Shown here: piece by piece, positions 1-34,292 of the stretch
How the letters are laid out: each line of letters begins with the position of its first letter
Numbering within the stretch: the first letter of the stretch is position 1
Virus record (IMG/VR): IMGVR_UViG_3300017971_000079
Coordinates: 1-50,991 of that record
Reading direction: 5' to 3' (one strand)
Source: a virus
Length of the DNA: 50,991 nucleotides
Notes under the pieces: model-generated
Told to the model about the DNA's origin: nothing
What the model saw: the letters and a program-made list of their open reading frames with translations, nothing else
Databases searched by the model: none
Position numbers and translations under genes: made by a program

Positions 1-123
1 AGCCAGCGCTGCCTTTTTTTCTTGAGCTCGCTTATGACATCAGCGAGGTCGCGGCTCTCGGCCCACGGCGTCTGGTCTTCCGGCTTATCTATCAGCCACC
101 TACGCCGCCCGCCGACAGGGGCG
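1..123. repeat. Terminal overlap, left copy
   Basis: Bases 1-123 are identical to 50869-50991, so the sequence closes into a circle of 50,868 bp. The repeat lies inside a coding region, and the reading frame runs through the junction without a break because 50,868 is divisible by three. This is most simply the overlap left when a circular or circularly permuted genome is assembled, not a biological terminal repeat. Confidence 0.95.
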
Positions 124-3100
124 AACATGATTAAGTATCTACCCTTTAATTTAGCGCCGTCAAGAAAAATTTCTACCGCGTGCCTTCTCGCAACGCCCAT
201 CTTGTACGTACCTTTGTCAAGGGCGAAAAATTTCGAGAACTTGTTCGCGGTCGACCCCGCTTCGCCCGGCGGCGACACGTACGGCTTGCCAACGCCTACC
301 TCGAGCCACTCCTTCGGTTGCTCCAGCTTCGGCGCGAGCTCGATATTGTCGCCCTCCTTCCAATCGATGAGCTTGTCCAGGTGCTCGAGCCTGCGGTTGT
401 CCTGCGTCCTCCCGAGGAACACCGCCCAACCCCAAAGCCCTTGGCCGTCGCTCAACCGAATGTCTCCGTGTACCGAGTGCCCGGTGTCCTTCATGAGCTG
501 CTCATCGCTGAGCTTCACCTCGTCTTCGTTGAGCCCGCGCCAGTGGTGTTGATACACGAACTCGCCCTCGCCGTCCTTCGGGAACGCCTTTATCCAATCC
601 TTCTCCCAGTGCTCGTAAGCCGCCGCCGCGCGCGTGCCACCTTCCTCACGAGGTTTCAACAACGGCTTCGGCGCCTGCTTTCGAATCTCCTGCCGGAACT
701 GCCGAAGCTTGCGCTGTACCTCACCCGAATCCCCAAAGCGACGCACCGCGCTCGGATGCGGCAACACAAGGTCGACCGTGCCCACTTCCGCAAGCGCACT
801 CTCCGCGGTACGCCCAAGCGCCACGACCTTCTCGGGCTTGTACTTCTCGAGCTCGCCCTTCAACCATTCGCGCCACTCCTTCATCTCCTCGACCGTCGGC
901 TCGCGCGTTCTGCCCTTTTCGTCTTCGAGCAACACCGGTACGACGTTGGTCAATAGCACTTCGGACCTGCGGATACCGAGCGGTTTCAAATACTTTTCGT
1001 TAAACACCTCGCCCCCGGGCCCCGCCATGGGCTCGCGTCGCGCCGCTTCTATCCTGCCGGGACTCGCTCCGATGAACGCCACCTTCGCGCCCTTCGGCCC
1101 CGCCGTCGGTACCTCGGGACGCAACGCCTTGATGACGTTCGCGGGCAAGTACTCGACCTCGCCTTTGTCGTCGACTTCCTTGACCCGCAACACGAGGTTC
1201 TTCGCCGCGCGCTTGACCACGGCGTCCACCGTGTCCGGCTCGCCCTCGTACTCCCCGAGTACCCGTGGAACCCACGCCGTCAAACGCACTCCCTCCGGCC
1301 CGATGATTTTGTTCACGGTCTCCGCTTCGATAAGCACGTTGTCCCCAGGCGTAAATTTCCTCCCCGTCGCGAACGTGTCTCCAACCGTGAGCAGCTCGCC
1401 GTTGTGCTTCACGCCGTACGTGTAAACCCAAACGCCGCCCTTCGTCCGCTTGCCCTTGATCACCTGCCCTCGAACTGTCGTCGCGTTGTGGAACTTCACC
1501 CACTCGTCTCCGGTCGCAAAGTCAAGGCGGTACGGCGAATCGATTTGCTTCGCGACCATACCCTCGGACCCAGGCTCTTTACGTAACTTCTCGGTGATGC
1601 GCTCGATGTCGTCGGGCGTCTTCGCCGACACCCCTTCGACTACCTTAAGCACGTCTCCGTCTTTGATTTGCTTGAGCACTTCGAGCCGCGTCCGGAGCGA
1701 CTTGCCGTGAATGTCCCCCTTCCAGTAAACCACATCGAAGGCGTTCGCTCTCAAGTGCGAATCGTCTGGCTCGGATTTGCTGGCCAAGTACCCGGCAACC
1801 GCCTCACGCGGCAAGTGCTTCTTTCCCTCCCACGCTTCTATCTCGACATCGAGCACCGCCTTGTTCGCTGCAATTTTTTTGATGTCCTCTACCAGAGTCG
1901 GAAATCGGTCGGTGTTGTCGTCGCCGTCCTCGGAAAAAATACGAACGGTCGACCCCACCTTGTGGATTTGATGCCTGGCTCCGTCGAACTTACGTTGAAC
2001 AATTGCCGGCAACCACTTGTCCGAGCGCTCGGTGTAGAACTCGACGAGGCGCTCGATGGTCTGCGGCTCTTCGGCGAACGCCGGCCGGGTCGGTTTCGGT
2101 TGGTAGAAAAACTCACCCGGCGTCAGCACGCCGTTTTTCTTCGCGCGCTCCGCTTGCGCGCGTTGCTCCGCGCTCGCGGCCCGGGCCTGCTTCTCGATGT
2201 CGAGGCTGTCCGCCCACTCTTGCCCAGGGTCTCCACCCCACAGCAGCCACGCTATCCACTGCGCGCTCGGGTTCTTCTCGTTCTCCCAGCCCTCGTCTCT
2301 CCGGTCGACCTGCGCGCCGTGCCTCGCGAAGAACGACCGCATGCGCCCGACCGTCTCCGCACTCAAGTCGCGACGGTTGCTCAAGTCACGAGCGCGCGCA
2401 ACGCCTACCTCCGTCCCGCCGCGATTGAACTTGTCGCGAAGCCGAAGGCCACGGCTCGCCACAAGCGCCGCCGACACCGGAGGTTTGAAGCCCTCGGCTT
2501 TGACCACCCGCTCTCTGTCCTCGTACTCGGGAGGACACGTCTCTACCTTGACCACATGAGGCTCGCGTCGTCGCGCAACCAAATCAAACATCGGTATGTA
2601 ATCGGTGAAGCTCCCCTGCGGTGCGTCCAACAATTGCACCTGCGGCCCGCGCTTGTTCGGCGAGAGGAACCTCCTCAACGCAACCCCGAGGCTCCGGCCG
2701 TCCACGCCGTACGTTCCTCTCCCCGCGTCGTACTCCGACCGAATTACCACGTCCACGTCCCCGGGTTTCTCTGCTACCGCCGCACTTCCCGCCACACTTA
2801 CCCAGTCCCGGCACAGCAGAATCTCGTCGGGTATCTTCTCAAGCCGTGCGCCGATGAACTTCGGCAACTCCCCCTTGACCCCCTTGACCGAATCTTTCCT
2901 CGCCTTGTGCGTCGCTTCGAGCTTCTCCACTTCCTTCACAAGCTCGGTGCGCTCTACCTTCCTACCGCGTCGCTCGCGCTCCTGCTTCGTCCACAACGCC
3001 GCGTTCACGATGTTCTCGACAGGCTGCCGTCTTCGCTTCGCGTTGCTAAACCATTGATGCAGCCTCAACCAGACCGCATCGAGGTCTTCGTTGCCGAGGT

Positions 3101-3287
3101 TCTTCAACGCCGCGGGTTTTATCTCGGCGAGCGCGAGCTTCTCGATGACGCTTGGCTCGTCAATACGATGCGCCGCACGCCCTCCCGCTCGCGCCCTCGC
3201 CCGCTGCATCAAGGTCGCGTAGAGCCAACCGGGAATGTCCTGCTTGAACTCGTTCAACATTTCTTCGAGATATTCTCTGCTCGCCAT
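1..3287 (-). CDS. Giant fusion protein, N-terminal 1,095 residues: nucleotidyltransferase + DNA ligase + UDG-like + 3'-phosphoesterase-like
   Basis: First part of a 1,277-residue ORF that continues across the circle junction into 50868-50322; I read every codon and found no stop. The start ATG at 3287 overlaps the MuF-like gene's stop (TAATG). Visible modules in order: helical N-terminus; nucleotidyltransferase-like motif G167-S168 followed by D177-V-D179; a motif near 314-362 with RMRSFF and WLLWGGDPG; an ATP-dependent DNA ligase with K433-F-D-G (motif I), LDVE ending at E482 (III), EGMVAK at 575-580 (IV) and W596-V-K598 (V), then an OB-like segment; a uracil-DNA-glycosylase-like domain with GASPGRIE from 740 and H844-P-S-A, lacking the Fe-S cysteines of family 4 enzymes; a LigD phosphoesterase-like domain with QHHWRG at 913-918 and H940-G-D942-I-R944. 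The C-terminus is a capsid protease. Domain assignments are from motifs; activity is inferred. Confidence 0.85.
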   Translation of the reverse strand, partial: MASREYLEEMLNEFKQDIPGWLYATLMQRARARAGGRAAHRIDEPSVIEKLALAEIKPAALKNLGNEDLDAVWLRLHQWFSNAKRRRQPVENIVNAALWTKQERERRGRKVERTELVKEVEKLEATHKARKDSVKGVKGELPKFIGARLEKIPDEILLCRDWVSVAGSAAVAEKPGDVDVVIRSEYDAGRGTYGVDGRSLGVALRRFLSPNKRGPQVQLLDAPQGSFTDYIPMFDLVARRREPHVVKVETCPPEYEDRERVVKAEGFKPPVSAALVASRGLRLRDKFNRGGTEVGVARARDLSNRRDLSAETVGRMRSFFARHGAQVDRRDEGWENEKNPSAQWIAWLLWGGDPGQEWADSLDIEKQARAASAEQRAQAERAKKNGVLTPGEFFYQPKPTRPAFAEEPQTIERLVEFYTERSDKWLPAIVQRKFDGARHQIHKVGSTVRIFSEDGDDNTDRFPTLVEDIKKIAANKAVLDVEIEAWEGKKHLPREAVAGYLASKSEPDDSHLRANAFDVVYWKGDIHGKSLRTRLEVLKQIKDGDVLKVVEGVSAKTPDDIERITEKLRKEPGSEGMVAKQIDSPYRLDFATGDEWVKFHNATTVRGQVIKGKRTKGGVWVYTYGVKHNGELLTVGDTFATGRKFTPGDNVLIEAETVNKIIGPEGVRLTAWVPRVLGEYEGEPDTVDAVVKRAAKNLVLRVKEVDDKGEVEYLPANVIKALRPEVPTAGPKGAKVAFIGASPGRIEAARREPMAGPGGEVFNEKYLKPLGIRRSEVLLTNVVPVLLEDEKGRTREPTVEEMKEWREWLKGELEKYKPEKVVALGRTAESALAEVGTVDLVLPHPSAVRRFGDSGEVQRKLRQFRQEIRKQAPKPLLKPREEGGTRAAAAYEHWEKDWIKAFPKDGEGEFVYQHHWRGLNEDEVKLSDEQLMKDTGHSVHGDIRLSDGQGLWGWAVFLGRTQDNRRLEHLDKLIDWKEGDNIELAPKLEQPKEWLEVGVGKPYVSPPGEAGSTANKFSKFFALDKGTYKMGVARRHAVEIFLDGAKLKGRYLIMFAPVGGRRRWLIDKPEDQTPWAESRDLADVISELKKKRQRW

Positions 3288-4342
3288 TACTCGACCCTTT
3301 CAAGCGTCTCTGTACAACCGCAATGCGGATGCGCTGACTCCCCCGGCATGTCTACGGCACCTATGTACGCGCTCTCGTACGGCTCGCCCAACTTCGCCGT
3401 CTTGCCGTCCAGCTCCAAACAAATCTCGCAAGGGTTGTCCGGGTTCCCCGTCGGCCCCGCCGTCAACCATCGCCTCCGTACCTCGGGCAGTTTTCCCGAA
3501 TCCTGCGCTATCTTCCACGCATCATTGCGCCCCTGCGCCTGCGCCGTTATCGTCTCGGTCCTCGCTATCATCTGCGCACGCTTGCCGAGCAGCTCCTCGC
3601 GATACGCATCCCCCTGCCGCCGCACCTCGTCCTCGTCGACGCCCGCCGCGCGCAACATCTCTTTTCTGTTCTGTACCGCTTTGCTCCACCTCGGAGTCAA
3701 CCCAACGTTCGCTTTTATCTCTCCGAAAATTTCCTCAGCTCGCAACCCCCGGGAGAACCCGTCGCTCAGAACGTCGGTCACAACCTCGCGTTGACTCCAC
3801 GTCAGCCCCTCCTCTATCAAGTGCGTCGCACGTTCCTCCATCCACTTTTTCGAGTAAGGGTTGATAGGTACCATCATCTCCTCGTCCGCTGCCCTTAAGC
3901 CTTCGCTAACTGCTTTCTCTATCGTCTCCTCGCCTCCACGGTCTTCGGCAGTCTCCAAACCAAATCGCATCCTCGTCTTGAACTTCGCGTTCATACGCTC
4001 CGTTGCGTCGTCGCCCGCCTCCTGCATCACTTGCGCGTACGCGCGCATGATACGCTCGCGGAACTTCTCCCAGACCTCCGACTCCGCCTCCTGCGCCACC
4101 GGTACCGCTTCGAGTACCTTGACCGCCGACCGCTCTCTAATCGCGCGCTTCACGTCACGCTCGGCCTTCGGCGTCCACATCGTTTTCAGCGCTTCCAAGA
4201 ACGCCCTCACGAACTGTCCCTCGTTCTTCCGAGCTATCTTGTACGCCTCCCTCCCCTCGGGCGTTCCAGGGTCGCGACGGTACCACGCCTTGCGCCGGCG
4301 CTTCTGTACGCGCACTAAATGGTACTGGTCAACAAACGACAA
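3287..4342 (-). CDS. MuF-like head morphogenesis protein
   Basis: 351-residue protein of the phage Mu gpF / SPP1 gp7 type, a minor head protein that normally sits next to the portal and helps procapsid assembly or DNA ejection. The C-terminal part carries the family hallmark: an ARTET-type stretch (IARTETITAQAQGR), then NPCEICLELDG and SAHPHCGCTETL, a Cys/His cluster typical of MuF. The N-terminal two thirds is strongly helical and charged. The likely start is TTG at 4342, since no ATG lies near and a GGAG sits 11 bases upstream; the gene begins 3 bases after the portal stop. The order terminase, portal, MuF, protease, scaffold, capsid matches Mu-like and PBSX-like head operons. Confidence 0.88.
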   Translation of the reverse strand: MSFVDQYHLVRVQKRRRKAWYRRDPGTPEGREAYKIARKNEGQFVRAFLEALKTMWTPKAERDVKRAIRERSAVKVLEAVPVAQEAESEVWEKFRERIMRAYAQVMQEAGDDATERMNAKFKTRMRFGLETAEDRGGEETIEKAVSEGLRAADEEMMVPINPYSKKWMEERATHLIEEGLTWSQREVVTDVLSDGFSRGLRAEEIFGEIKANVGLTPRWSKAVQNRKEMLRAAGVDEDEVRRQGDAYREELLGKRAQMIARTETITAQAQGRNDAWKIAQDSGKLPEVRRRWLTAGPTGNPDNPCEICLELDGKTAKLGEPYESAYIGAVDMPGESAHPHCGCTETLERVE

Positions 4343-4345
4343 CGG

Positions 4346-5779
4346 TCACGCGCTCCGCGGCAGAACGTTCCCGCAGCTCGGGCACTTCCTCGGGTTGCCT
4401 ACGTATCCTTCACCACACGTCGGACAATACCGAACCGGCGGCCGTCTTCCAGGCACCGCCCCCGGTATCACCTTCGCTATCTTCCCCTTCTGCACCTCGC
4501 CCTGCCCATCGTCTTCGGGCATCGGCAACCCCGCTACCTCGAGCAACTTGCGCCTCAGCGCCTCGTCACCCTCGGGCAGCATGTTGGTCACCGATAGCGC
4601 TTGCAGGTACTGCGCAAGCTCCGCCAAAGGCAAGCTTTCGATGTCGCCGTGTACCATCTTCGGCCAGAGCTCCCGCTTCACTCCGTTCGCCTCCATCAAT
4701 CGATGGATGCCGAACCGCGTGAACGTCGAAGCGATGTTCTTGAGGTATGCCCCAAGTGCTACACTGAACGTCTCGGTCTGAGAACTCGCAAGCGCCCAAC
4801 TCCCTACGCTCGCCATGCCGAGCTGCAGGAACTGCGCAAGCACGCTTTGAAAGATGGAGCTCTTGTAGTAGGTCTTGATTTTATCGGTGTCGAACTGCCG
4901 GTTCCCTCCACTGGTCATCAGCTTGAACTTGAACTGCGTCGGCTTACCCTCTTCATCGAGCTCGCTCGGAACAATCGCGTACTCGCGTTCATCGCGCTTC
5001 ACTTGCGCAAGCATCTTTTGTAGGTCGGAGAGCAACGCTTTGTCCTCGGAACTCGCATCCTCGCTCAACATCCGTACCGGTACTTCCATCACCGGCAACC
5101 CCGTCAGGTCGCGCTCCACGCCTATCGCCTCTATCTCCGAAATTCTCTTGAGATAGAACCAATCGATGACCGCGTTCCGGTACAGGCTCCGTCCCTGCGG
5201 GTTGCCCTTCGTCGTCGTGGTCCGAAACAGAATCGCTTTCTCTATCGGAATGTACGCGGTCTGCGCGCTCGATGGGTGCTGCTGATGCATCCCCCTCAAC
5301 CCCCCGTCGTCGTCGAACTCCCAGCGGTCTAGCGTGTTCTGCGCACGCAACGCGAACTTGCGCCAACCTACCTTTCCATCGTTGTACGCCGAGCGCTGCG
5401 CCGGGTCCTTGCCATCCATTCCTCGCCGCATCTTGTACACGACCTCGAACAGAGACCACCCGTAGGGAAACATACTCAAGACCTCGGAGATGAAATCCTC
5501 GAACGTGTGGCTCATGTCGATGACACACGAGCTCACGAACTCCGCTTGCTCTTTCGCCACCTCCCCGGGCTCGCTCGGCTCCACCCTCCATTCGACTTGT
5601 TGTACTAACGCCTCGAAGAGATACTGTATCGCGCCGATGGTCGAGCTGTTGTCCTTCATCTCTCGATAGACCTTCGGGCCGAAGTCGCCCCGCAACTTCG
5701 CGTGGAACTCCTCGTCTATCAGACCACCAAACTGCTTGAGACCCGAAAACCCCAGCGTCTTGAAATCCAGCTTCGCCAT
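4346..5779 (-). CDS. Portal protein, DUF935 type, with C-terminal zinc ribbon
   Basis: 477-residue portal of the Mu gp29 / DUF935 family, which forms the ring at the packaging vertex through which DNA enters and leaves. Family-like features are the early IGAIQYLFEALVQQVEW segment, the SHTFEDFISEVLSMFPYGWSLFEVVY-type region near 90-120, and SLYRNAVIDWFYLKR near 200. It follows the large terminase by 14 bases and has a GAAGGG site before its ATG. The odd feature is the last 30 residues, which form a treble-clef or zinc-ribbon motif (YCPTCGEGYVG then CPSCGNVLP, two CxxC pairs). I do not recall such a ribbon as a normal part of DUF935 portals; it may bind a partner or nucleic acid. Confidence 0.9.
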   Translation of the reverse strand: MAKLDFKTLGFSGLKQFGGLIDEEFHAKLRGDFGPKVYREMKDNSSTIGAIQYLFEALVQQVEWRVEPSEPGEVAKEQAEFVSSCVIDMSHTFEDFISEVLSMFPYGWSLFEVVYKMRRGMDGKDPAQRSAYNDGKVGWRKFALRAQNTLDRWEFDDDGGLRGMHQQHPSSAQTAYIPIEKAILFRTTTTKGNPQGRSLYRNAVIDWFYLKRISEIEAIGVERDLTGLPVMEVPVRMLSEDASSEDKALLSDLQKMLAQVKRDEREYAIVPSELDEEGKPTQFKFKLMTSGGNRQFDTDKIKTYYKSSIFQSVLAQFLQLGMASVGSWALASSQTETFSVALGAYLKNIASTFTRFGIHRLMEANGVKRELWPKMVHGDIESLPLAELAQYLQALSVTNMLPEGDEALRRKLLEVAGLPMPEDDGQGEVQKGKIAKVIPGAVPGRRPPVRYCPTCGEGYVGNPRKCPSCGNVLPRSA

Positions 5780-5793
5780 GATGAATAACCCTT

Positions 5794-7200
5794 CTACGCG
5801 CTCGCCCGCGCAAAGTCAGTGGGCCGCGTCCTCGACCCCGTGAGAGGAATTACTATGTTAGAGATTGACCGTCGCGACAATCGAGAAAGCGCTTGTGTCA
5901 TCGCGTCACATTGATCGTCGTTTTTCGCGTTTGGAAAGCTTACCACCTCTTCGACGAACTCCCTCACCCAAGGCTTGCCCTCGGGTAGATACACGTTGCC
6001 AGCTTCGAGCAGCCCCGACACGGCGAGCAGACGCGCCTCCTTGCTTCCTACCGGTCGCACACCTACCACACCGTCGAGCTCGTGCTTGAGCGTCGCGAGC
6101 ACCGCCTCGCCGTTGGCCGCGCGCTCCACCACCTTGTCACGCGCAAGAGGATGCTTCGAGCTCATCGCGCGAATCGCATCGAGCGTCCCCGGGAAATCGA
6201 CCTTCGCACGGAACTGGTCGACGAGGTAGAAGTTCGGTTTGGCGTATCCCCATACCTGCCCGACCACGTAGGACGTGCCCACGGTGAACGTGAGGTCCCA
6301 CGATTGAATGAGTTGAGAACAGCGCGGGAGCTCGCGATACCAACGGAACCACGCGCGCTTGATTGCCCCGCCCTCAGGCGGCGACGGGTGCTGTTGGTAC
6401 AGACCGTTGAAGAGCTGCGTACCTAGCCCCTCCCCGGGTGCGAGCTTGATGCGCTGTAGGTCGTCGGCGTCAAAACGCTCGGGACAAAGCGCCTCGCCTG
6501 GAGCGCGACCGAGCGGGTCGTTGTCTTCGGCGACGGCCGGCAACGCGACATGCTGCCAGTCATCCGCATGCTCGTCCACGAGGTATCCCGTGAGGTCCTC
6601 TTCATGCCAGCGCGTCATGACCACCACGATGGAGCCACCGGGCTCTAGACGGGTGTACAAGTCCGCGTTGAACCGCTCGATAATTTTTCGACGCACCGTC
6701 GGAGAGTTCGCTTCCTCCCAGTCCTTTACCGGGTCGTCGATGATGATGAGCGAAGCCCCGCGACCGGTAACGCCGCCTTGCGCGCCAGCGGTCTTCATCC
6801 CCCCTCCGTCCACCGTCTCCCAATCACTGGTCTCGCGCTTCGCGTCGCTCACGCGGGTGGAGAGTAGCTCGTTGCGCTGGAGCTCGTCACGCACCTTGCG
6901 TCCCCAATGCGCGGCGAACGTGTCCGAGTACGACGTGAGAATCACCCGCTGTTCGGGGAACCATTCGAGGAACCACGTCGGGAGCCAGTGAGAGAACGCC
7001 TCGCTCTTGCCGTGCCGCGGTGGAGCATTGATGATGATGCGCGCGCCGCCGCGCACGATGGCTGGCTGAATCACCGACAGCAACAAATCGAGCCAACGAA
7101 ACGGACGCCACTGTCCGCGGGAGGCGGTCTGCGCAAACGTGCTTATATTGAGGCGCCAGCGCTCCTCAACCATCGCTTGCGCGTCGAGCGCGGTGTTCAA
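5794..7200 (-). CDS. terL: Terminase large subunit
   Basis: 468-residue packaging motor protein with an N-terminal ATPase and C-terminal nuclease. The Walker A-like PPRHGKSE lies near residue 63, an adenine-motif region RVILTSYSD follows, and Walker B is LIIIDDP with the acidic pair. The nuclease domain starts at QSWDLTFTVG, whose Asp is the expected first metal ligand, and closes with NDDQCDAMTQAL. Length matches Mu gp28-like and related terminases. Start: TTG at 7200, overlapping the small-subunit stop as TTGA with a GGAG eight bases upstream; an alternative ATG lies at 7173. It is the second gene of the leftward virion operon, followed by the portal. Confidence 0.93.
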   Translation of the reverse strand: MNTALDAQAMVEERWRLNISTFAQTASRGQWRPFRWLDLLLSVIQPAIVRGGARIIINAPPRHGKSEAFSHWLPTWFLEWFPEQRVILTSYSDTFAAHWGRKVRDELQRNELLSTRVSDAKRETSDWETVDGGGMKTAGAQGGVTGRGASLIIIDDPVKDWEEANSPTVRRKIIERFNADLYTRLEPGGSIVVVMTRWHEEDLTGYLVDEHADDWQHVALPAVAEDNDPLGRAPGEALCPERFDADDLQRIKLAPGEGLGTQLFNGLYQQHPSPPEGGAIKRAWFRWYRELPRCSQLIQSWDLTFTVGTSYVVGQVWGYAKPNFYLVDQFRAKVDFPGTLDAIRAMSSKHPLARDKVVERAANGEAVLATLKHELDGVVGVRPVGSKEARLLAVSGLLEAGNVYLPEGKPWVREFVEEVVSFPNAKNDDQCDAMTQALSRLSRRSISNIVIPLTGSRTRPTDFARASA

Positions 7201-11529: not shown

Positions 11530-11887
11530 GAACGACGCTGCTATCACCGACGTTGCGGTGGAATTCGCGGCGGAAATCATGGGAGCGGTCAACAAGGACG
11601 TGGTGAAGCCGCGGGACTGGTGGTCGAGATGCCGAGCTGCGCTCGAAGCGGCGGCGTCGGCGTCCGAGACGTGGGCGCAGTTCGTTTCGAGGTTCGGACA
11701 GAAGATGCAGATAGAGAGCATTCCCTCCGAGATCGCGACAGACGTGGCATTGCTCGAAGCGCATCTGATAGAAAACAAATGGTGGCCGCGGTTCCGCTAT
11801 CTCGTGCAACGAGATGCGTTGTACATCTCCGCGATGGCCCAAGTCCGGCGCAAAGAGCGCTTCGGGAAAAAAGCGAAGGGAGAGTGA
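11516..11887 (+). CDS. cas11: Cas11-like small helical subunit
   Basis: 123 residues, apparently all helical, with tryptophan-rich patches (PRDWWSRCRAALEAA, NKWWPRFRYLVQRD) and a basic C-terminus. It has no motif that defines it alone; the call rests on size, predicted helicity and position, because type IV-B loci carry a small subunit gene between csf1 and csf2. The start ATG 11516 lies inside the last codons of csf1 with AAAGGAGG just upstream, so the two are translationally coupled. It could equally be an unrelated small phage protein. Confidence 0.5.
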   Translation: MSGVENDAAITDVAVEFAAEIMGAVNKDVVKPRDWWSRCRAALEAAASASETWAQFVSRFGQKMQIESIPSEIATDVALLEAHLIENKWWPRFRYLVQRDALYISAMAQVRRKERFGKKAKGE

Positions 11888-11888
11888 C

Positions 11889-12746
11889 ATGGAATTTTCA
11901 ACGATAGAAGTACGAGCTAAAGCTCTCGACCCGATTCATCATGGCGCGGGCACGGCCGGGAACACGTCGCTTCTCAGGGTGCAAGAGGTGTTGTTGCCGG
12001 ATGGTGAAATGGCGAGGGTTCCGTTTGTCAGCGGAAACTCAATCAAGCATCGGCTACGAGAGGCGATGGTCCACCACGCTGTCAACGTGCTGGATGTGCC
12101 GGATCACTCGATTTCGACAGCAGTAGTCAACCTGCTCTATTCGGGTGGCGCGTTGACGGCGACAGGGGCGAACGTAGATCTGGCGCTCCATCGGGAATTT
12201 CAGCGGCTTTGGCCCGCTCTCGGGTTGTGCGGCTACGCGGCTGGCAACACGATGGTCCAGAGCAAGCTTGCGGTGTCGCACTGGCATCTGGTCTGCTCCG
12301 AGAACTTCTGGCGTCTGCCGACCGACCTTGCGGCGCACAAGATGTCCGAGATGAGCGCGGCGGCGTTGAGGAGCAGCGATTTCGGTACGCGAATGTCTGC
12401 GGCGACGCGTGCGGGAGTGCGAGGGAAGATCGTCGAAGGTGAAGAGCCTGGGGAGTCGGGACAGATGATTTACGACTTCGAAACCATCTCGGCGGGGGCG
12501 CTGCTCTACGGGTCGATTCGCATCACGAACGCGACCGAGATGGAGCGCGCGGCGCTGGCGGCGGGTATCGCGACGTTGCAGGCGAAAGAAAAACACGTCT
12601 GGCAGATAGCGGCAAAGACGAGTGTAGGGTTCGGGCGCTGTCGTGTGAAGCTGCGAGGGTTGCCGGTCGCGGACGTGGAAAATTACGAAGAGCATTTGCG
12701 GGCGAATCGGGACGCGGCGTTGGCAATTCTCGACAAGGTGATGTGA
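11889..12746 (+). CDS. csf2: Csf2-like Cas7 backbone protein
   Basis: 285 residues, RAMP/Cas7-like. The N-terminus has LDPIHHGAGTAGNTS, then a strand and ARVPFVSGNSIKHRLREAM, the Cas7-type segment that starts the thumb/palm region. The stretch LLYSGGALTATG, WPALGLCGYAAGN and KLAVSHWHLVCSEN reproduces the order I know from Csf2 (LFSGG..., P-L-L-G-x-x-x-GN, K-L-x-V, C-x-E). The C-terminal glycine-containing KTSVGFGRCRVKL matches the RAMP glycine loop. Csf2 polymerises along guide RNA in type IV effectors. ATG 11889 is preferred (GGGAGAG upstream); the frame is open further left to 11814 inside the preceding gene. Confidence 0.75.
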   Translation: MEFSTIEVRAKALDPIHHGAGTAGNTSLLRVQEVLLPDGEMARVPFVSGNSIKHRLREAMVHHAVNVLDVPDHSISTAVVNLLYSGGALTATGANVDLALHREFQRLWPALGLCGYAAGNTMVQSKLAVSHWHLVCSENFWRLPTDLAAHKMSEMSAAALRSSDFGTRMSAATRAGVRGKIVEGEEPGESGQMIYDFETISAGALLYGSIRITNATEMERAALAAGIATLQAKEKHVWQIAAKTSVGFGRCRVKLRGLPVADVENYEEHLRANRDAALAILDKVM

Positions 12747-13414
12747 TGGATGTCTTCGAGGTTGTCGCGACGATGGAGGAGCCCGTGTGTGTCGTCAATC
12801 CGGTAGTGCATCTCGATGGCGTGCTGGCGTTCGGGGCGTACTTGCAACTGGACGAGGAACGCAGGAGGGCGCTGCCTCCGATATCGTCGGAGTGGGCGGA
12901 AGATTTCGAGCTGCCGTTGGCGCGGTGGGAGCAGGAGGCGCGCGTACCGGAGCCGTTCGACGAGCGGTTATGTTCGCGGCCGGGGGTGGTGTGGGGGTGG
13001 AAGTGCTCGGCGGCGCGATTCGAGCAGGCGCTAGAGGGCGTCCACGAGGTGCGGAAGAAACCGGCACAAGCGGAGATGCTCAGGTATGCGGATGCAAAAA
13101 AGCTGAAGACCGGTGCGGGACCGGTGCGAGCGAGAGACCGGAAGTTCCCGACGGTGTTTGCAAGGGAGATTCGGTGGTGTGTCGAGGGAGACGCAGAGCG
13201 GGTGTTGGCGCTGGCTCGGGGTGTACCTGGTATCGGAAAACTCGTCGGTCATGGGATGGGACGCGTGGCGAGTTGGCGTGCGGAGGAAGCGAGAGAAGAT
13301 TGGAGCATGTGGAGGACGTTGCCGGATGCGGAGTCGCCGTTGTTGTACGGAATCAGGGCACCGTATCATCATCCGTCGCGGCAAGTGTTCGCGAAAGAGC
13401 CTGAGGGGCTTTGA
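12746..13414 (+). CDS. csf3: Csf3-like Cas5 protein
   Basis: 222 residues. The N-terminus EEPVCVVNPVVHLDGVLAF matches the Csf3/Cas5 opening (P-V-x...-P-L-H-L-D-G-x-L-A). FELPLARWEQ and VWGWKCSAARFE follow in the expected order. The C-terminal PGIGKLVGHGMGRVASW is the RAMP glycine-rich loop in the Csf3 form (I-G-K-x-x-G-x-G-x-V-x-x-W). In type IV complexes Csf3 binds the 5' handle of the guide. The start overlaps the csf2 stop (TGATG); a GTG at 12743 is the alternative. The gene ends in TGATG, overlapping the radical SAM gene, so csf1 to radical SAM forms one coupled block. Confidence 0.72.
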   Translation: MDVFEVVATMEEPVCVVNPVVHLDGVLAFGAYLQLDEERRRALPPISSEWAEDFELPLARWEQEARVPEPFDERLCSRPGVVWGWKCSAARFEQALEGVHEVRKKPAQAEMLRYADAKKLKTGAGPVRARDRKFPTVFAREIRWCVEGDAERVLALARGVPGIGKLVGHGMGRVASWRAEEAREDWSMWRTLPDAESPLLYGIRAPYHHPSRQVFAKEPEGL

Positions 13415-14643
13415 TGCGTGCATGCTTCGTTGAGGCGTGTGACGATAAAGATGCCGGATCTATCGGCGCGTATTACGTAGCGACGCATGCGAGGCGCGCT
13501 GGGCACCAGATCGATTTCAGCCGTACAACACAAAACGGGTACGATGTCGAATTGATTTCCGTGCATCATTGTATGGACTTTCTGCGATTAGCGCACCTGC
13601 CGAAGCGAGCGCCTTTGCGGATAGTGGGAGGCCACGCGATGCTGTCAAACCCGCGCCCGGTAATTCCGTTTGCCGATATCGTTTTTCGTGGCGAAGCTGA
13701 AAGCTGGATAGGCGGTGCGCTTGATGCCCTGGACGGTGAAAAAGATGCTGCGTGTTTGCAGGGGGTGCCGGGGGTTATCGTGACTAAAAATTGGATTAAG
13801 GGGGCTCATCTGCCGGACGTTGTTTTTGAAAGACCGTTGCCTTCAAATCCGCCCTATCTGAATTGGGCGGGGACGAAATCGGCGGCATGGTACTTGGAAA
13901 TAGCGAGGGGGTGCCCCTTTCGTTGTGCGTTTTGTGAGCTAGGCAACAGCACCCCCTTTCGCATTTATCCCAAAGAACACGTTTTCGAAGCGCTTAAAGG
14001 ATTAGACACAACCCTTGCACGTAAGATCAACTTGTTCGCGCCGGACGAAACTAGTCACCCTGCTTACACGGAGATATACGAGCACCTGGAACGAAAAGGG
14101 TATAGTGCCGCGTTTTCGTCGATGCGTATCGAATCCGTCATGAAGCGCCATCCGAAGCTCAAACCTAATGTACTAATTCGCGTGGGCATCGATGGGCTTT
14201 CAGAACGTGTGCGCACGGAAGTCAACAAGCCCATTACGGATGATCAGATAGTAGAGTACTTCAAAGAGTGGACCGAGAGAGGCCATGTCAATTTCAAAAC
14301 TTTTTTTATCTTTAGTTATCCTGGGGAAACCGAAGCTGATTTCCGAGGCTTCGAGATTTTGATGCGGAGAGTTTTCCAAATCCGATTGCGGAAAAACTGT
14401 TCGTTGCGGATCAAATGGACTCCATTTATCCCGCAACCATGCACGCCCCTTGGCTCCAGCCTGCCGCGCTACAATCGAGACATTGCCGCGCGTATCCGCA
14501 GGTGGCATGCGTTGCACAAGGAGCCCGTGCGCACCCCGGGATGGTGGGTGACATGTGACGGGATGATGTCTGAGAAAGCGCACGCGCTTCAGTGCCGATT
14601 GACGCATGGCGATGAGGAGACGCTGATAGATGCGCGTCCATAA
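13414..14643 (+). CDS. Radical SAM enzyme with B12-domain-like N-terminus
   Basis: 409 residues. About 110 N-terminal residues look like the Rossmann-type cobalamin-binding fold of class B radical SAM enzymes (PLRIVGGHAMLSNP, then ADIVFRGEAE), but no DxHxxG cobalamin motif is seen. The radical SAM core begins with ARGCPFRCAFCELGN, giving the CxxxCxxC that binds the 4Fe-4S cluster. Downstream HVNFKTFFIFSYPGETE fits the barrel. The substrate is unknown. The start ATG overlaps the csf3 stop, and a GAGGGG lies upstream. Base composition is visibly less GC-rich than in its neighbours, suggesting separate acquisition. Type IV-B loci often carry a CysH-like gene here; a radical SAM gene in that slot is unusual. 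Confidence 0.82.
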   Translation: MRACFVEACDDKDAGSIGAYYVATHARRAGHQIDFSRTTQNGYDVELISVHHCMDFLRLAHLPKRAPLRIVGGHAMLSNPRPVIPFADIVFRGEAESWIGGALDALDGEKDAACLQGVPGVIVTKNWIKGAHLPDVVFERPLPSNPPYLNWAGTKSAAWYLEIARGCPFRCAFCELGNSTPFRIYPKEHVFEALKGLDTTLARKINLFAPDETSHPAYTEIYEHLERKGYSAAFSSMRIESVMKRHPKLKPNVLIRVGIDGLSERVRTEVNKPITDDQIVEYFKEWTERGHVNFKTFFIFSYPGETEADFRGFEILMRRVFQIRLRKNCSLRIKWTPFIPQPCTPLGSSLPRYNRDIAARIRRWHALHKEPVRTPGWWVTCDGMMSEKAHALQCRLTHGDEETLIDARP

Positions 14644-16267: not shown

Positions 16268-16867
16268 ATGTGCAACCCAGCAACATTCCTGATTACGCGG
16301 TCCCGTGTGTTGTGGTCTGTTGACCACGACTCGCACGAAGAACTCATTCGAGAGGCCGGGCTCAGCGACGGCCTGCGCGGCGGAGATTTCGTGCGGGCCG
16401 AGATTTCCCCGCCCGACAACGACTACTCGCTACCGCTGGGGCAGTGGGTGTATCGCACAGACCAGGACACCGTGCCCGACTGGTACGACGAGCGCGAGGC
16501 CGAGATCGCGGCCTGCGCCGAGCTGCCCGCATGGGCAGAGCACCATCTCGTCCGCGATGGCCAGGTCGAGGTGCGCGACGGGCAGAGCCGCGTGCTGCTC
16601 GGTGATGCGCGCGCCGAAGTTCACGGCGGCGTGGTGCGGTGCCACGGCGAGTCCCGCGCCGAGGTGCACGGCGGCTGGGTGGGCTGCTTCGGCCAATCCC
16701 GCGCCGAGGTGCACGGCGGCGAGGTGCGGTGCCACGGCGAGTCCCGCGCCGAGGTGCACGGCGGCGTGGTGGAGTGCTACGGCGAGTCCCACGCCGAGGT
16801 GCACGGCGGCGTGGTGCGGTGCGACGATCAGGCGACAATGGATGACAGGAGGCCCCCCAATGTGTAA
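16268..16867 (+). CDS. Protein with tandem 15-residue beta-type repeats
   Basis: 199 residues. The N-terminal 95 residues are acidic and of unknown fold (PLGQWVYRTDQDTVPDWYDE). From about residue 105 the chain is built of five 15-residue repeats of the form AEVHGGVVRCHGESR, likely stacking as a small beta-helix. Similar short repetitive proteins are common in tailed phages and have no assigned function. GGAGG lies upstream of the ATG. The last residues overlap the next gene. Confidence 0.65.
   Translation: MCNPATFLITRSRVLWSVDHDSHEELIREAGLSDGLRGGDFVRAEISPPDNDYSLPLGQWVYRTDQDTVPDWYDEREAEIAACAELPAWAEHHLVRDGQVEVRDGQSRVLLGDARAEVHGGVVRCHGESRAEVHGGWVGCFGQSRAEVHGGEVRCHGESRAEVHGGVVECYGESHAEVHGGVVRCDDQATMDDRRPPNV
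16613..16837 (+). repeat. Five tandem 45-bp coding repeats
   Basis: Units start at 16613, 16658, 16703, 16748 and 16793, each opening GCCGA(A/G)GT(T/G)CACGGCGGC. They stay in frame and encode the 15-residue repeats of the overlying gene. Copy number could vary by recombination. Confidence 0.85.
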
Positions 16868-17063
16868 CGAGGAATTCAACGCGGATTTGCGGGCCTGGAT
16901 GGCCCGCTACAAGGTGCCCGCGCAGGAGCTCGCGAGGCACCTCGGCATGAGCAGGTACACGCTGCACCGGCGGATGACCGGGGCGAGCGAGTGGCGCGAA
17001 CTGGAGCGCCGCGAGATTGCGCGCCTGCGGGCGGCGACGGAAACGTGTCGGAGAGTGCCGTGA
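16860..17063 (+). CDS. Small helix-turn-helix protein (Cro/XRE-like)
   Basis: 67 residues. VPAQELARHLGMSRYTLHRR is a standard helix-turn-helix, with the Gly-Met turn and a recognition helix starting at Ser. The ATG is preceded by AGGAGG seven bases upstream, and the stop overlaps the next gene's GTG. Probably a transcriptional regulator or an excisionase-type DNA binder; which promoter it acts on is unknown. Confidence 0.7.
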   Translation: MCNEEFNADLRAWMARYKVPAQELARHLGMSRYTLHRRMTGASEWRELERREIARLRAATETCRRVP

Positions 17064-17812
17064 ATATCTCTCCGACGCAGCTCGTCAAGTACCGGCAGTG
17101 CGCCCGGAAAATCGGCTACGAGTACGTCGAGGGGATCAAGGCGCCCTCGACGCCGAAGCAGGAGTTCGGCCGCGAGGTACACAAGCACCTCGAGCGCTGG
17201 CTGCGTGACGGCGTGCTCCCCGACAAGTCGCCGGCGGGGCTCGTCGCGAAGCAGGGCATCGGACGCTGGTTGCCTCCTCCGGGACCGGAGCTGCTCGTCG
17301 AGCACACGTGGTCGATACCGCTCGAGTGCGGCGTCGTGCTCTCCGGGATCGCTGATTGCGTCCAGCCCCCCCGCGGTGGCGAGCTGCCGCTCGTCATCGA
17401 CCACAAATCGACCTCGGGTCTCAAATGGGCGCTGACTCCCGAACAGCTCAAGACCGACGTACAGTCGCTTTTGTACGCGACGTGGGCGGGGCTCGAGTTC
17501 GGCGCGCGCGTGGTAGAGGTGCGCTGGATATACTACTCCGCCAGCAACCCGCGCAACGGAGGCCCGCGCAAGCCCACGGGCGTGAAGCCGGTGGGCGCGT
17601 CCATCGTGTTGCCCGACGCTGTGGCGCTCATGAGAGGCGTCCTACGTGACGTGAGGGAGATAGTGAGGATACGTGCCGAGCAGTACAGCGGAGCGCAGCT
17701 CCCCCCTTCCCCGGCGTCCTGCGACCTATACGAAGGATGCCAACATAGAGCACGCTGCGGCGACCTCGGGCAGTGGGCGCGAATCGCCGCCAAGATGGAC
17801 AAAAAATACTGA
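17060..17812 (+). CDS. Cas4/RecB-like PD-(D/E)XK nuclease with Fe-S cysteines
   Basis: 250 residues. It opens with ISPTQLVKYRQCARK (the S-x-S/T...Y-x-x-C start of RecB/Cas4-type nucleases), continues with FGREVHKHLERWL, SGIADCVQ (catalytic Asp) and LPLVIDHKSTSG, the D-x-K core, then the Q-x-x-x-Y-type KTDVQSLLYATWAG. Three cysteines near the C-terminus (CDLYEGCQHRARC), plus the N-terminal one, would bind a 4Fe-4S cluster as in Cas4 and AddB. It is probably a phage recombination exonuclease. A link with the Csf genes is possible but not shown: it lies 3.7 kb downstream and no cas1 is present. GTG 17060 overlaps the previous stop. Confidence 0.8.
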   Translation: MNISPTQLVKYRQCARKIGYEYVEGIKAPSTPKQEFGREVHKHLERWLRDGVLPDKSPAGLVAKQGIGRWLPPPGPELLVEHTWSIPLECGVVLSGIADCVQPPRGGELPLVIDHKSTSGLKWALTPEQLKTDVQSLLYATWAGLEFGARVVEVRWIYYSASNPRNGGPRKPTGVKPVGASIVLPDAVALMRGVLRDVREIVRIRAEQYSGAQLPPSPASCDLYEGCQHRARCGDLGQWARIAAKMDKKY

Positions 17813-27994: not shown

Positions 27995-28183
27995 ATGTTG
28001 AGAGAAGAAGACCTCGACAAGCTCGTGAAGTATCTGGACCGGCCCCGGTCGGTCGAAGAAGTCATGGAAGAGTTTGAAATCTCCGAGAGGTCGGCGTACC
28101 GATACTTCAAGGTGCTCGAAGACCTAGGTAACCGCGTCGCAAGGTTCGGCACCTGCCCGACCCGATACCAGGTGATCCAGTGA
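27995..28183 (+). CDS. Small helix-turn-helix protein
   Basis: 62 residues. RSVEEVMEEFEISERSAYRYFKVLEDLG is a winged-helix/HTH pattern; the rest gives a short wing ending YQVIQ. ATG 27995 with GAGGAG upstream is chosen over the in-frame 27971 that lies inside the RuvC gene. Its stop overlaps the methyltransferase start. Confidence 0.7.
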   Translation: MLREEDLDKLVKYLDRPRSVEEVMEEFEISERSAYRYFKVLEDLGNRVARFGTCPTRYQVIQ

Positions 28184-28824
28184 TTGAACCCTACTATGCC
28201 GAAAAGGACATCGTCATTTTTCACGGTGATTGTCGCGATGTGTTGCCGGAACTTGAGCCGGTTGACTGTGTGATCACGGACCCGCCTTATGGAATGAACT
28301 GCGACACAGATAATAGCCGGTTTACAAACAGAAAAGGCAGCCAAGATTCCCCCGGCGTTGGCGCGGGCGTACCGATAGTTGGCGATGACAGACCCTTTGA
28401 CCCGTCGCCTTGGCTCGAATATCCGCGCGTGGTGCTCTTTGGCTGCAATCACTTCGCGGCACGTCTGCCCGTTGGGTCTACACTCGTATGGATAAAGCGG
28501 TTTGATCCCGCGTTCGGCTCGTTCCTGTCGGACGCGGAATTAGCATGGATGAAAGGCGGGCACGGTGTCTACTGTTTCCGCGACTTGTCCATGAATGGCG
28601 AGGCCAGGCACCGCAAACACCCGACACAAAAGCCGCTGCCCTTGATGCTATGGTGCATTGAAAAGGCGGGCGGCGACGGAACAATCCTCGATCCATTCAT
28701 GGGCAGCGGCACCACGCTAGTCGCTGCGAAGGAATTAGGCCGCCGCGCTATTGGGATCGAGATCGAAGAGAAATACTGCGAGATCGCAGTCAAGCGTTTG
28801 GCGCAGGAGGTGTTGCCGCTATGA
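28180..28824 (+). CDS. DNA methyltransferase (DPPY type)
   Basis: 214 residues. VDCVITDPPYGM is the catalytic motif IV of N6-adenine and N4-cytosine enzymes; ILDPFMGSGTTLVAAKELGR near the C-terminus is the AdoMet-binding motif I, so the order is catalytic first, as in the beta class. HRKHPTQKPLPLM precedes it, also typical. The middle (FGCNHFAARLPVGSTLVWIKR) fits. Target sequence unknown; most likely an orphan that shields the DNA from restriction. Overlaps neighbours by four bases at both ends. Confidence 0.88.
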   Translation: MIEPYYAEKDIVIFHGDCRDVLPELEPVDCVITDPPYGMNCDTDNSRFTNRKGSQDSPGVGAGVPIVGDDRPFDPSPWLEYPRVVLFGCNHFAARLPVGSTLVWIKRFDPAFGSFLSDAELAWMKGGHGVYCFRDLSMNGEARHRKHPTQKPLPLMLWCIEKAGGDGTILDPFMGSGTTLVAAKELGRRAIGIEIEEKYCEIAVKRLAQEVLPL

Positions 28825-31919: not shown

Positions 31920-34292
31920 TTAGGTCAATGCGGCGTAGTGCCAGCCGCTATTCGTATAGTAGTACGCGCGGTACGTGTTGTCGTTTGTGTTGTGCGCGAC
32001 GAAGTGCCCACCGTTCTGCAAGCTGGCGGGCGACGGCGCCGGAGGGCTCGCCCATGCAACCCCGTAGTCGGCCGAGTAGTGCGGGATGAGAAACACGGGC
32101 TCGCGGTACGACCCCGCGCCGTCGGTCTCCGCGATGAGACCGGCGAGCAACGTCGAGTCGATTTGCATCTGCCAGTCGAGCGCCGCCCCGGCCGCGCCGC
32201 CCGCGGTAACCGGGATGTCAAAATGAACCGCGCGCGCCACACCTGCGGCGCTCCCTGTCATGATGGTTGTGGTACCTGTGGTTATGCCGCCGCCCAAGGT
32301 GAAATCACCGGCGTTGTCGATGCGCAATCTTTCGACCGGCGTGGTAGCCCCGGCAGGCGCAGTCTCGAGAGTAAACCGCGTCGGGCAGTCCCCCGCAGCC
32401 CACAAGCCATCCGCTTGACATCGGAAAACCCCCGTGAGTCTATTCGCCGCGCCATCATGTCCATAGAATGAAAATGTCCCAAGGTTATCATTGTTTTGGA
32501 TCAAACCGCCGGCGCGATTTTTTTGTAAGTTGAAACTGGCGCCTATGCCATTGTTTTCATTTTGCGTGTAGTAGAGTCCGTCTTCGGGCCAAACCCGCAA
32601 GCAGTTGGTGCTGCCAGGGCCGTACGAATGAATGACTAATGCCGACTTGTCGTCACTGATCAACCGCAAACACCCGCCGCCGCTCCAGTTCGAGCCGTCG
32701 CATTCGATGGTCTGGATGTAGTTGGTGGTCGCGCCGCTTGGCGACTGCTTCAGGCTGACCAGCGAGGCCGTCTCATTCGTCGCCGACTCATGAACAATCC
32801 GCGCATCGCCGTTCAACGAAATCCCGACAACCGAGTTCAATGTTTTGTTGGTCAGCGTCTGCGAATCCGAGGTACCAACCACCGAACCCGTGACCCCGTG
32901 AGCGCTGGACGCTCCAATATGTGTATCAATTTGCGCGTGAGTATTCGAGCCTATCGAGCTCAAGCTCGTGTGGTCAACCGTTCCTCCGCCCGCCGCGTTC
33001 GAGTGGTCGTGGTTCGCGTTTGTGAAATCAGAAATTGACGGCGACACCGCGAACGTCGCCGCGCCGTCGAAGTACGCATGGTCATCGAACTCGCTCTTGC
33101 CGTTGACATAGAAGATAGGTGCATGGTCGGGCGTACCCCCCACTCCGATTTTGACTTCACCTACGTCGTTGATTCGCGCGCGTTCGGTATCCGATGTCTT
33201 GAAGATGATGTCCTTACCAAACAAGTTCAAGTCATTTACGGAATTCAGCTCAAGAAACAAATTGCCGATAATCTGCATGTCTTCGAGCTGAGACGTGACC
33301 GTGATTTTGTTGGAGTCACTTCGAGTCAGTCGGAAGTAATCGGTGCCATTGTTGATGAAGAACCCGTCCGCCGAACCCGTGCACGAGGCTAGGTCGACGA
33401 TGAAAGAGTTAGTACCTGAGAGTCCCCACTCCGCATCACCTGCGTCAACGGTCACGGTCTGCCCGCCCTCGTACGCTTGGTTGAGTGTGACCCCGTGGGG
33501 ATTTGCGTTGTCCCCGATATGGGTATCGATTTGTGCGTGAGTGTTCGAGCCTATCGAGCTCAAGCTCGTGTGGTCAACCGTTCCTCCTCCCGCCGCGTTC
33601 GAGTGGTCGTGGTTCGCGTTCGTGAAATCGCCAATCGTTGGAACGTTCAAGGTCTTGCTCGCAAGCGTTTGAGTCGCCGAAGCAAACACGAACTCGTCGT
33701 CTCCGCCGGGGTCATTGATGTTCAATGCACGCGCGCCCGCAGGATTCGCCCACGTCAAAATGTAATCGGCGGTCGACTGGTCGAGAGTGAGCTGCGTCTG
33801 CAAAATCGGAGAGACCAACGTCTTGCTCGATAACGATTGCGTCCCGCCCGTTCCGACGATATTTCCCGTGACCCCGTGGGCGCTCGAAGCCCCGATATGG
33901 GAATCGATTTGCGCGTGAGTGTTCGTCCCGGCGCCGCTCAGGTTTTGGTGAGCGATAACGTCGGACCCGCCCGATTCGTGTGATGCCGCATGTGCGTCCG
34001 GCGTCGCCACCATCCACGCGAGCTTCACCCCGGCGTCGCCATCGGTAACGGCTTGAAGCCGCTTGCCGATGTCGCCAACGGCCGCAGACGGAGGCGTGAA
34101 CGTCGCCCACGTCGGAGTCGTGTCAACGAGTCGCCAGAACGAACCGTCGTCGGTCTGTTTCGCGAGCTTGTCGACGTGCCTCGCTTCGAGGCTCGTGTCG
34201 GCTTTGCGCGCCGCTTGGTTCGCGTACACGATGTCGTGCGCGATATGAATCGAGCCGACGGTTTCGGTATCGTGGTATTGAGTTGTCGTCAT
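31920..34292 (-). CDS. Tail fibre / receptor-binding protein
   Basis: 790 residues. The N-terminal 100 residues are an attachment segment, followed by repeats built on [16 protein letters not shown] and [15 protein letters not shown] separated by beta-rich spacers, typical of trimeric fibres. The C-terminal 80 residues ([38 protein letters not shown]) are a globular tip likely to meet the host surface. It is the largest tail gene and last of the tail block, as expected for an adsorption protein. The DNA repeats inside it can recombine and alter length. Confidence 0.82.
32919..33030 (-). repeat. 112-bp repeat within fibre gene, copy 1
   Basis: Matches 33519-33630 with only about ten differences. 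A partial third copy of the left end lies at about 33869-33930. It encodes the HAQIDTHIG / [10 protein letters not shown] module. Confidence 0.85.
33519..33630 (-). repeat. 112-bp repeat within fibre gene, copy 2
   Basis: Partner of 32919-33030, exactly 600 bp away, preserving the frame. Deletion between copies would shorten the fibre shaft by 200 residues. Confidence 0.85.

Follow-up and report, generated by a model that had tools for sequence, protein, structure and literature searches.

Comparison with described systems

Polyvalent proteins, large multidomain products encoded among the virion genes of portal-terminase phages, are described in the main text of Iyer et al. (2017; PMC5512222), a subset of them as having an assemblin-like peptidase, always C-terminal, which was proposed to process proteins during virion assembly; Pol-beta nucleotidyltransferases (NTases) are among their domains. 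Judged from that text, the peptidase-bearing subset is the closest class already known to the protein analyzed here, which is encoded on the IMG/VR virus record IMGVR_UViG_3300017971_000079 (50,991 nucleotides; the whole stretch is referred to as the window) and joins an NTase, an ATP-dependent DNA ligase, a domain of the uracil-DNA glycosylase (UDG) superfamily and a LigD-type 3'-phosphoesterase (PE) to a C-terminal XkdF-type head protease. We propose, and hold to be somewhat better than an even prospect, that a head-maturation protease gene has been enlarged into a polyprotein whose cargo enzymes would be packaged, cut free and delivered with the genome.

Like the polyvalent proteins as Iyer et al. 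present them, the fusion has several disparate enzyme domains per chain, lies among virion genes and, as in the subset, ends in a peptidase; equating its protease family, Peptidase_S78_2, with the assemblin-like peptidase is our own reading of that paper. Unlike them, it has its peptidase in the slot of the head protease, a cargo for DNA end repair whose order is almost constant, and the same candidate cut motif as the scaffold. Neither a DNA glycosylase nor XkdF appears in the main text of the 2017 paper, which speaks of ligases as RNA ligases. A literature search that covered few subscription papers gave no report of a ligase/UDG-protease fusion or of an XkdF cut motif; relative to the literature found, the DNA-repair version fused to a head protease, its spread and the predicted cut rule are new.

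Other systems share individual parts. The bare XkdF/Peptidase_S78_2 proteases (PBSX XkdF, Lactococcus 98201 gp34, Pseudomonas PaP1 gp048) belong to the same family and hold the same position before the scaffold and the major capsid protein (MCP), but are without DNA-repair domains. In the ANMV-1 virus, AJP62006 (KP703175, L002:3200-5800) resembles the fusion's cargo, with NTase-ligase-OB-PE right after the portal, whereas protease and UDG were undetected in it and its C-terminal part is, by eye, a possible second PE copy; it is annotated just as "ATP-dependent DNA ligase," and the virus is linked to an uncultured archaeon. The PE fold and its H/H/D/R residues recur in bacterial LigD and in archaeal 3'-phosphoesterases, and LigD likewise has ligase and PE in one chain; the order is ligase before PE in the fusion but PE before ligase in the LigD controls, and the POL domain of LigD, a protein of non-homologous end joining, was undetected in the fusion. 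In SPN3US, internal head proteins are cut by the prohead protease and many are thought to enter the cell (PMC10052503); such cargo, as for T4 gp21, comes from separate genes with propeptides, whereas the window cargo is fused to the protease. A 1,000-aa protein of Arthrobacter phage Mufasa8 (L005:1021-4023) combines portal, NUDIX and MuF and is encoded next to an XkdF protease, but there the enzyme is joined to portal/MuF rather than to the protease, and DNA-repair domains are lacking.

The bare XkdF proteases (L003:4223-5272; PaP1 gp048, 156 aa, L260:3902-4372) are often named "DNA methyltransferase" in GenBank. For the Lactococcus protein, Pfam gave no methyltransferase match; the name may have spread from fusion proteins.

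The fusion frame and its domains

The fusion open reading frame (ORF) comprises 1,277 codons and a stop, and runs on the minus strand from 3287 to 1 and then from 50868 to 50322. The first 123 bases of the record repeat its last 123 exactly, so the contig closes as a 50,868-bp circle, and the frame is open across the join, as an original prediction made from the letters of the window had claimed. A frame that crosses the contig join does invite the explanation that the fusion is spurious, produced by misassembly or a frameshift where the contig ends meet. The junction from PE to protease is, however, unbroken in independent contigs, namely that of the relative L008 (76-87% identical to the window per shared module) and dozens more; among the contigs that carry the fusion without a break is one of 8 kb closely related to the window. 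The fusion is therefore not a misassembly at position 1/50868; this explanation is refuted, and we give it practically no credence. The parts of the frame, with the evidence for each, are as follows.

1-3287, minus strand: fusion residues 1-1095 (N domain, NTase, phrog_2859 domain, ligase, OB, UDG-like, PE); frame, Pfam, family profiles
50322-50868, minus strand: remaining frame past the circular join (PE end, linker, XkdF protease, stop); frame, Pfam
2868-3287, minus strand: N-terminal helical domain, residues 1-140, common to many relatives; family profiles, model
2553-2855, minus strand: Pol-beta-type NTase, residues ~145-245, GS...DxD; alignment, model, PF01909 in relatives
2202-2489, minus strand: phrog_2859 domain of ~100 aa, residues ~267-362, variable cargo slot; PHROGs
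1488-2096, minus strand: ATP-dependent DNA ligase adenylation domain, residues 398-600, K433; Pfam, alignment, Foldseek
1203-1487, minus strand: ligase OB domain, residues 601-695; family profiles, model
678-1112, minus strand: UDG-superfamily domain, residues 726-870, H844, motif A degenerate; Pfam, structure match
3-635, minus strand: LigD-type PE, residues 885-1095, with about three more residues beyond the join; profiles, alignment, Foldseek
50391-50801, minus strand: XkdF-type head protease, residues 1119-1255, H1177 and S1248; Pfam, alignment, structure matches

Pfam matches were judged against curated cut-offs, and PHROGs was used for phage domains. The ligase, UDG-like, PE-like, NTase and XkdF protease domains that had been predicted are borne out by Pfam, Foldseek and conserved signatures, the ligase, UDG and protease all lying above their cut-offs, and the residues singled out (K433, K580, K598, H844, H940/D942/R944) are all present and conserved in aligned relatives; the N-terminal helical domain (about residues 1-140) and the phrog_2859 domain (about 258-362) had been missed. 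DNA_ligase_A_M matches residues 428-599 (8e-25, 88 bits against a cut-off of 26.2), and aligned rows keep the motif-I lysine K433 in 49/51, K580 in 44/51 and K598 in 47/51. An adenylation domain with this lysine, followed by an OB domain, is the make-up of a DNA ligase, for which nick sealing is the predicted activity. Peptidase_S78_2 (PF14550) matches residues 1122-1253 (3e-14, 53.4 bits against 24), with structural matches to XkdF models, and the presumed active-site residues are kept in 63/64 (H1177) and 62/64 (S1248) aligned rows. The NTase signature is nearly constant (G in 50/51 rows, S in 46/51, DxD in 50-51/51); PF01909 was matched by 7 of 34 family members, the window copy being unmatched, and a profile search of the PDB with the NTase gave no match. 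PHROGs places the phrog_2859 match at residues 254-383; elsewhere this domain stands ahead of protease/MCP in Roseobacter phages and inside a head gene of Vibrio phages.

The PE was matched by PF13298 weakly and below cut-off in all 12 members tested (best 5.5e-5, window 0.005). Foldseek with the whole model returned DNA ligases at E about 1e-18, and only ligases among the matches listed, so the PE-protease part of L008 was modeled separately; its seven significant PDB matches are all LigD PE structures (3p43: target TM 0.77, probability 1.00). LigD PE structures were also retrieved by a profile search with the segment 885-1098, and our home-made PE profile also picks out LigD proteins in Chloroflexota genomes by their PE, which lies ahead of the ligase. 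H915, H940 and D942 are present in 62/62 aligned rows and R944 in 61/62; we take these four residues to correspond to H42/H48/D50/R52 of LigD, a matching made by eye. Profiles and modeled fold thus agree in identifying segment 885-1098 as a LigD-type 3'-phosphoesterase. A Lactococcus phage match over query residues 992-1261 was set aside, as it extends into a separate gene upstream of the protease and not into a PE domain.

The UDG domain is matched by Pfam over residues 729-852 (4e-19, 69.5 bits against 24.3) and by structure 4zbx (2e-16), and it keeps H844 (41/44 aligned rows), E747 and mostly N781. It departs from family 4, having GASPG in place of GE-PG in motif A and zero cysteines in residues 722-880, where an Fe-S cluster needs four; with the motif-A acid and these cysteines missing, we place it in the UDG superfamily only. 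The predicted action on uracil is weakened accordingly, and some relatives are without a UDG.

Modeled with AlphaFold, residues 1-1095 (mean pLDDT 79.5) show ligase, OB, UDG and PE with good confidence; confidence is low at 244-272, 310-369, 717-722 and 871-884, around linkers and the phrog_2859 domain. Between the window and its nearest relative, L008, dN/dS is 0.10-0.19 for each shared module: the shared modules are under purifying selection, and the catalytic residues of NTase, ligase, PE and protease are near-invariant.

A family of polyproteins in uncultured viruses

A scan of viral contigs with the whole fusion as a single sequence gave no match, and single-domain profiles were needed: the PE profile recovered 66 loci, and scans with ligase and protease profiles added further ones. 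After clustering at 95%, 65 distinct viral ORFs join an XkdF-type protease to PE and/or UDG; PE is present in 59, ligase with PE in 43 and ligase, UDG and PE together in 30. The search for other ligase-Peptidase_S78_2 fusions called for in the original prediction was thus productive. The protease is C-terminal in essentially all 65, PE adjoins it in nearly all 59, and the domain order is nearly fixed as N-NTase-[cargo slot]-ligase-OB-UDG-PE-protease; iterated local profiles assign N-NTase-ligase-OB-UDG-PE-protease to 29 ORFs, besides many variants. The protease domains are merely 41% identical at the median, from which we conclude that the architecture is old. On the protease tree, which is poorly resolved, the window falls inside a well-supported set of 27 rows, all with PE.

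Relatives vary in the cargo slot (NTase/ligase), occupied in the window by phrog_2859, or at the N-terminus. D12 adenine methyltransferases occur in the polyproteins of L037 (2257-3579), L244 (5322-6578), L012 (7011-8012) and L178 (5836-7722), and a C5 cytosine methyltransferase in that of L009 (6909-8003); sharing a polyprotein with ligase and PE, these could possibly be packaged anti-restriction enzymes. Cargo positions also hold class I methyltransferases (L028, L021, L197, L198), metallo-beta-lactamase-fold domains (L226, L201, L219) and a 2H phosphoesterase (L195). Domain shuffling is seen in L234:2257-6087, the sole member with UDG ahead of ligase.

On the same poorly resolved tree UDG was gained or lost in about 11 changes and ligase in about 15. 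Such repeated loss, like the degenerate motif A of the UDG, would suit extra domains that are inactive relics and serve the procapsid core just in a structural or targeting role. We regard this as very unlikely, given the near-invariant catalytic residues of NTase, ligase and PE and a dN/dS of 0.10-0.17 for these three modules.

That the commonest cargo is ligase and LigD-type PE (43 and 59 of the 65 ORFs) agrees with another explanation, in which the packaged set is a LigD-like end-joining kit that would close the linear genome on entry rather than repair lesions, and the Pol-beta-type NTase could fill the ends. The fusion gave no POL domain match (Ku was not searched for), though, a UDG-like domain is present, and some relatives have no ligase; we consider such an end-joining kit less likely than not.

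None of 50,697 GenBank phage records matches ligase, UDG or PE together with the protease; matches there cover single parts alone (protease, ligase, methyltransferase-like or phrog_2859). A strong PE match was found in 2 of 400 genomes of the phylum of a Dehalococcoides metagenome-assembled genome, and in one genome of that phylum (L247) NTase, ligase and PE lie in one frame with two in-frame stops, a decayed copy. Chloroflexota are suggested as hosts of some relatives, which is no proof for the window virus.

Position among the head genes

In about fifty loci, as far as the contigs extend, terminase and portal are followed by MuF and the fusion, and these by scaffold, decoration-like protein, MCP, tail terminator and sheath, in that order. 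The fusion of the window lies between MuF and scaffold, in the head operon as predicted, with these neighbors:

5794-7200, minus strand: terminase large subunit; Pfam, PHROGs
4346-5779, minus strand: portal protein (Mu type); Pfam, PHROGs
3287-4342, minus strand: MuF head protein; Pfam, PHROGs
49408-50325, minus strand: likely scaffold, next gene after the fusion, 305 aa, seven [VIL]xK[ASQ]; PHROGs, synteny, motif count
48394-49392, minus strand: phrog_673 protein, decoration-like by eye, zero [VIL]xK[ASQ]; PHROGs, motif count
47419-48381, minus strand: MCP (phrog_1005), zero [VIL]xK[ASQ]; PHROGs, motif count
43866-45179, minus strand: tail sheath; PHROGs

The sheath gene indicates a contractile-tailed virus. 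In the cultured phage PaP1, terminase and portal are followed by a bare XkdF protease, then by a 305-aa gene, the gene for a structural protein and MCP; as the bare protease holds the same slot there, the fusion takes the place of a plain protease gene.

The main alternative to packaging is that cleavage of the polyprotein takes place in the infected cell, where the enzymes would act late, in finishing replicated DNA or repairing nicks before packaging, being neither packaged nor injected. The fusion would be made together with the late head genes, and it supplies the sole ligase and UDG matches of a genome that separately encodes a DNA polymerase A, so that its enzymes could be replication enzymes. 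The stable linkage is nevertheless with the head protease and not with replication genes, a procapsid-acting protease would be a poor partner for supplying cytosolic enzymes, and the linkers have the same cut motifs as the scaffold; we judge late cytosolic action unlikely.

A candidate cut motif common to linkers and scaffolds

The motif [VIL]-x-K-[ASQ] was derived by reading the linkers of the fusions, so that independent tests come from other proteins. In the linkers themselves [VIL]xK[AS] occurs 92 times against 20.4±4.5 in shuffled linkers, 4.5 times more densely than in domains, and the share of linkers that contain [VIL]xK[ASQ] is 28/32 for UDG-PE, 11/11 for NTase-ligase, 11/13 for ligase-PE and 19/28 for ligase-UDG, against 7% for segments of equal length within domains. 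Among other proteins, the neighboring scaffold homologues have 310 motifs where 66±7 are expected, and in 33 XkdF proteins of unrelated phages, which lack PE/UDG, the scaffold tails have 201 against 32±6; in PaP1, gp049 has 12 against 1.6 expected and the MCP zero. Within scaffolds, A, S and Q are preferred after K solely where the residue two positions ahead of the K is V, I or L. With K swapped in the pattern, scaffold homologues show no enrichment for R (13 against 24) or E (69 against 71), nor is [VIL]xK[ASQ] enriched in terminase, decoration, tail terminator and sheath proteins. Scaffold proteins of cultured XkdF phages are dense in [VIL]xK[ASQ] (PaP1 gp049, L260:4369-5286; L003; other XkdF loci).

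Other patterns were tried and rejected: as linker motifs, the T4-like [LI]xE (80 against 75) and the version with R in place of K are not enriched, and coiled-coil periodicity as a source of the scaffold motifs would enrich the E and R versions too. In HK97 the known cut site is K103/S104 (PMC10275583). Since a head protease destroys the scaffold, a motif that the linkers have in common with the scaffold is most plausibly a protease cut site; [VIL]-x-K-[ASQ] is accordingly our predicted cut site, at which the polyprotein would probably be cut apart between its domains. Release of the enzymes by the protease had been predicted from the fusion, and the motif, present in five of the six inter-domain linkers of the window and seven times in the neighboring scaffold, fits that expectation. 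The motif scan gives these candidate sites:

2496-2507, minus strand: VVKA, residue 261, NTase/phrog_2859 linker
2187-2198, minus strand: IEKQ, residue 364, phrog_2859/ligase linker
1125-1136, minus strand: VIKA, residue 718, ligase/UDG linker
675-686, minus strand: IRKQ, residue 868, UDG/PE linker
50799-50810, minus strand: VSKS, residue 1116, PE/protease linker
50781-50792, minus strand: IAKS, residue 1122, N-terminal edge of the protease

A proposed model of packaging, release and delivery

Based on observed architecture, synteny, conserved catalytic residues, purifying selection and motif enrichment in linkers and scaffolds, we infer cleavage at the motif, encapsidation, injection and a task on DNA. 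The C-terminal protease would be the part required in the procapsid alongside the scaffold, and the N-terminal NTase, ligase, UDG-like and PE domains would be carried in as its cargo. At maturation the active protease would cleave after the K of the motif, digesting the scaffold made from the adjacent gene and parting the cargo domains at their linkers; the released enzymes would remain with the packaged DNA, leave with the genome at infection and, in the entered cell, clean, fill and seal DNA ends or nicks ahead of viral gene expression. Statistics of the motif lend support to the cutting step; operon position, the analogy with the SPN3US head proteins and the proposal made for polyvalent proteins suggest packaging and delivery.

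Several observations weigh against this model. MuF (79 against 33) and MCP (43 against 22) are mildly enriched in the motif too, and the XkdF protein of psiM2 is not (1 against 0.9). In the window, three of the nine motifs (537, 578, 1238) lie inside folded domains, one of them overlapping ligase K580, and the N/NTase linker has none; just 19 of 47 PE-protease linkers have one within the tested span. The z-scores overstate independence, because related linkers inherit the motif jointly, and the motif itself rests on sequence statistics. The UDG motif A is degenerate and, as some relatives are without ligase or UDG, no single cargo enzyme is essential.

As for the DNA task, nick or 3'-end repair at entry, closing of a linear genome and counter-defence protection are possible candidates. 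Repair at entry, put forward in the original prediction, stands as one possible job, but end joining or circularization, or counter-defence in view of the methyltransferases of relatives, fit equally. The general statement that widespread uncultured viruses package a self-processing set for end repair and joining on their head protease, and that XkdF-family proteases cleave on the C-terminal side of the lysine in [VIL]-x-K-[ASQ], digesting the scaffold and releasing injected enzymes, is a tentative one, which we put slightly short of even. If it is true, viruses deliver their own DNA end-repair enzymes in the particle, earlier than newly made proteins could act, and the capsid protease doubles as a delivery and release device. 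Polyvalent proteins would gain a concrete, testable processing model, the whole head-protease family a predicted cut rule that can be tested in cultured phages such as PaP1, and enzymes a natural tag for loading into capsids.

Other features of the window

Away from the fusion, a weak match, just below cut-off, to Cas7-like DevR/Csa2 lies near a radical-SAM protein (11814-12746 and 13411-14643). A 45-bp tandem repeat at 16599-16823 has four copies in register in an open frame, and a 116-bp repeat (32914-33029 and 33514-33629; 94% identity, 600 bp apart) lies within a 790-aa ORF (31920-34292) among the tail genes. Separate genes for an N6/N4 DNA methylase and a PD-(D/E)XK nuclease are found on the opposite strand at 28180-28824 and 16991-17812.

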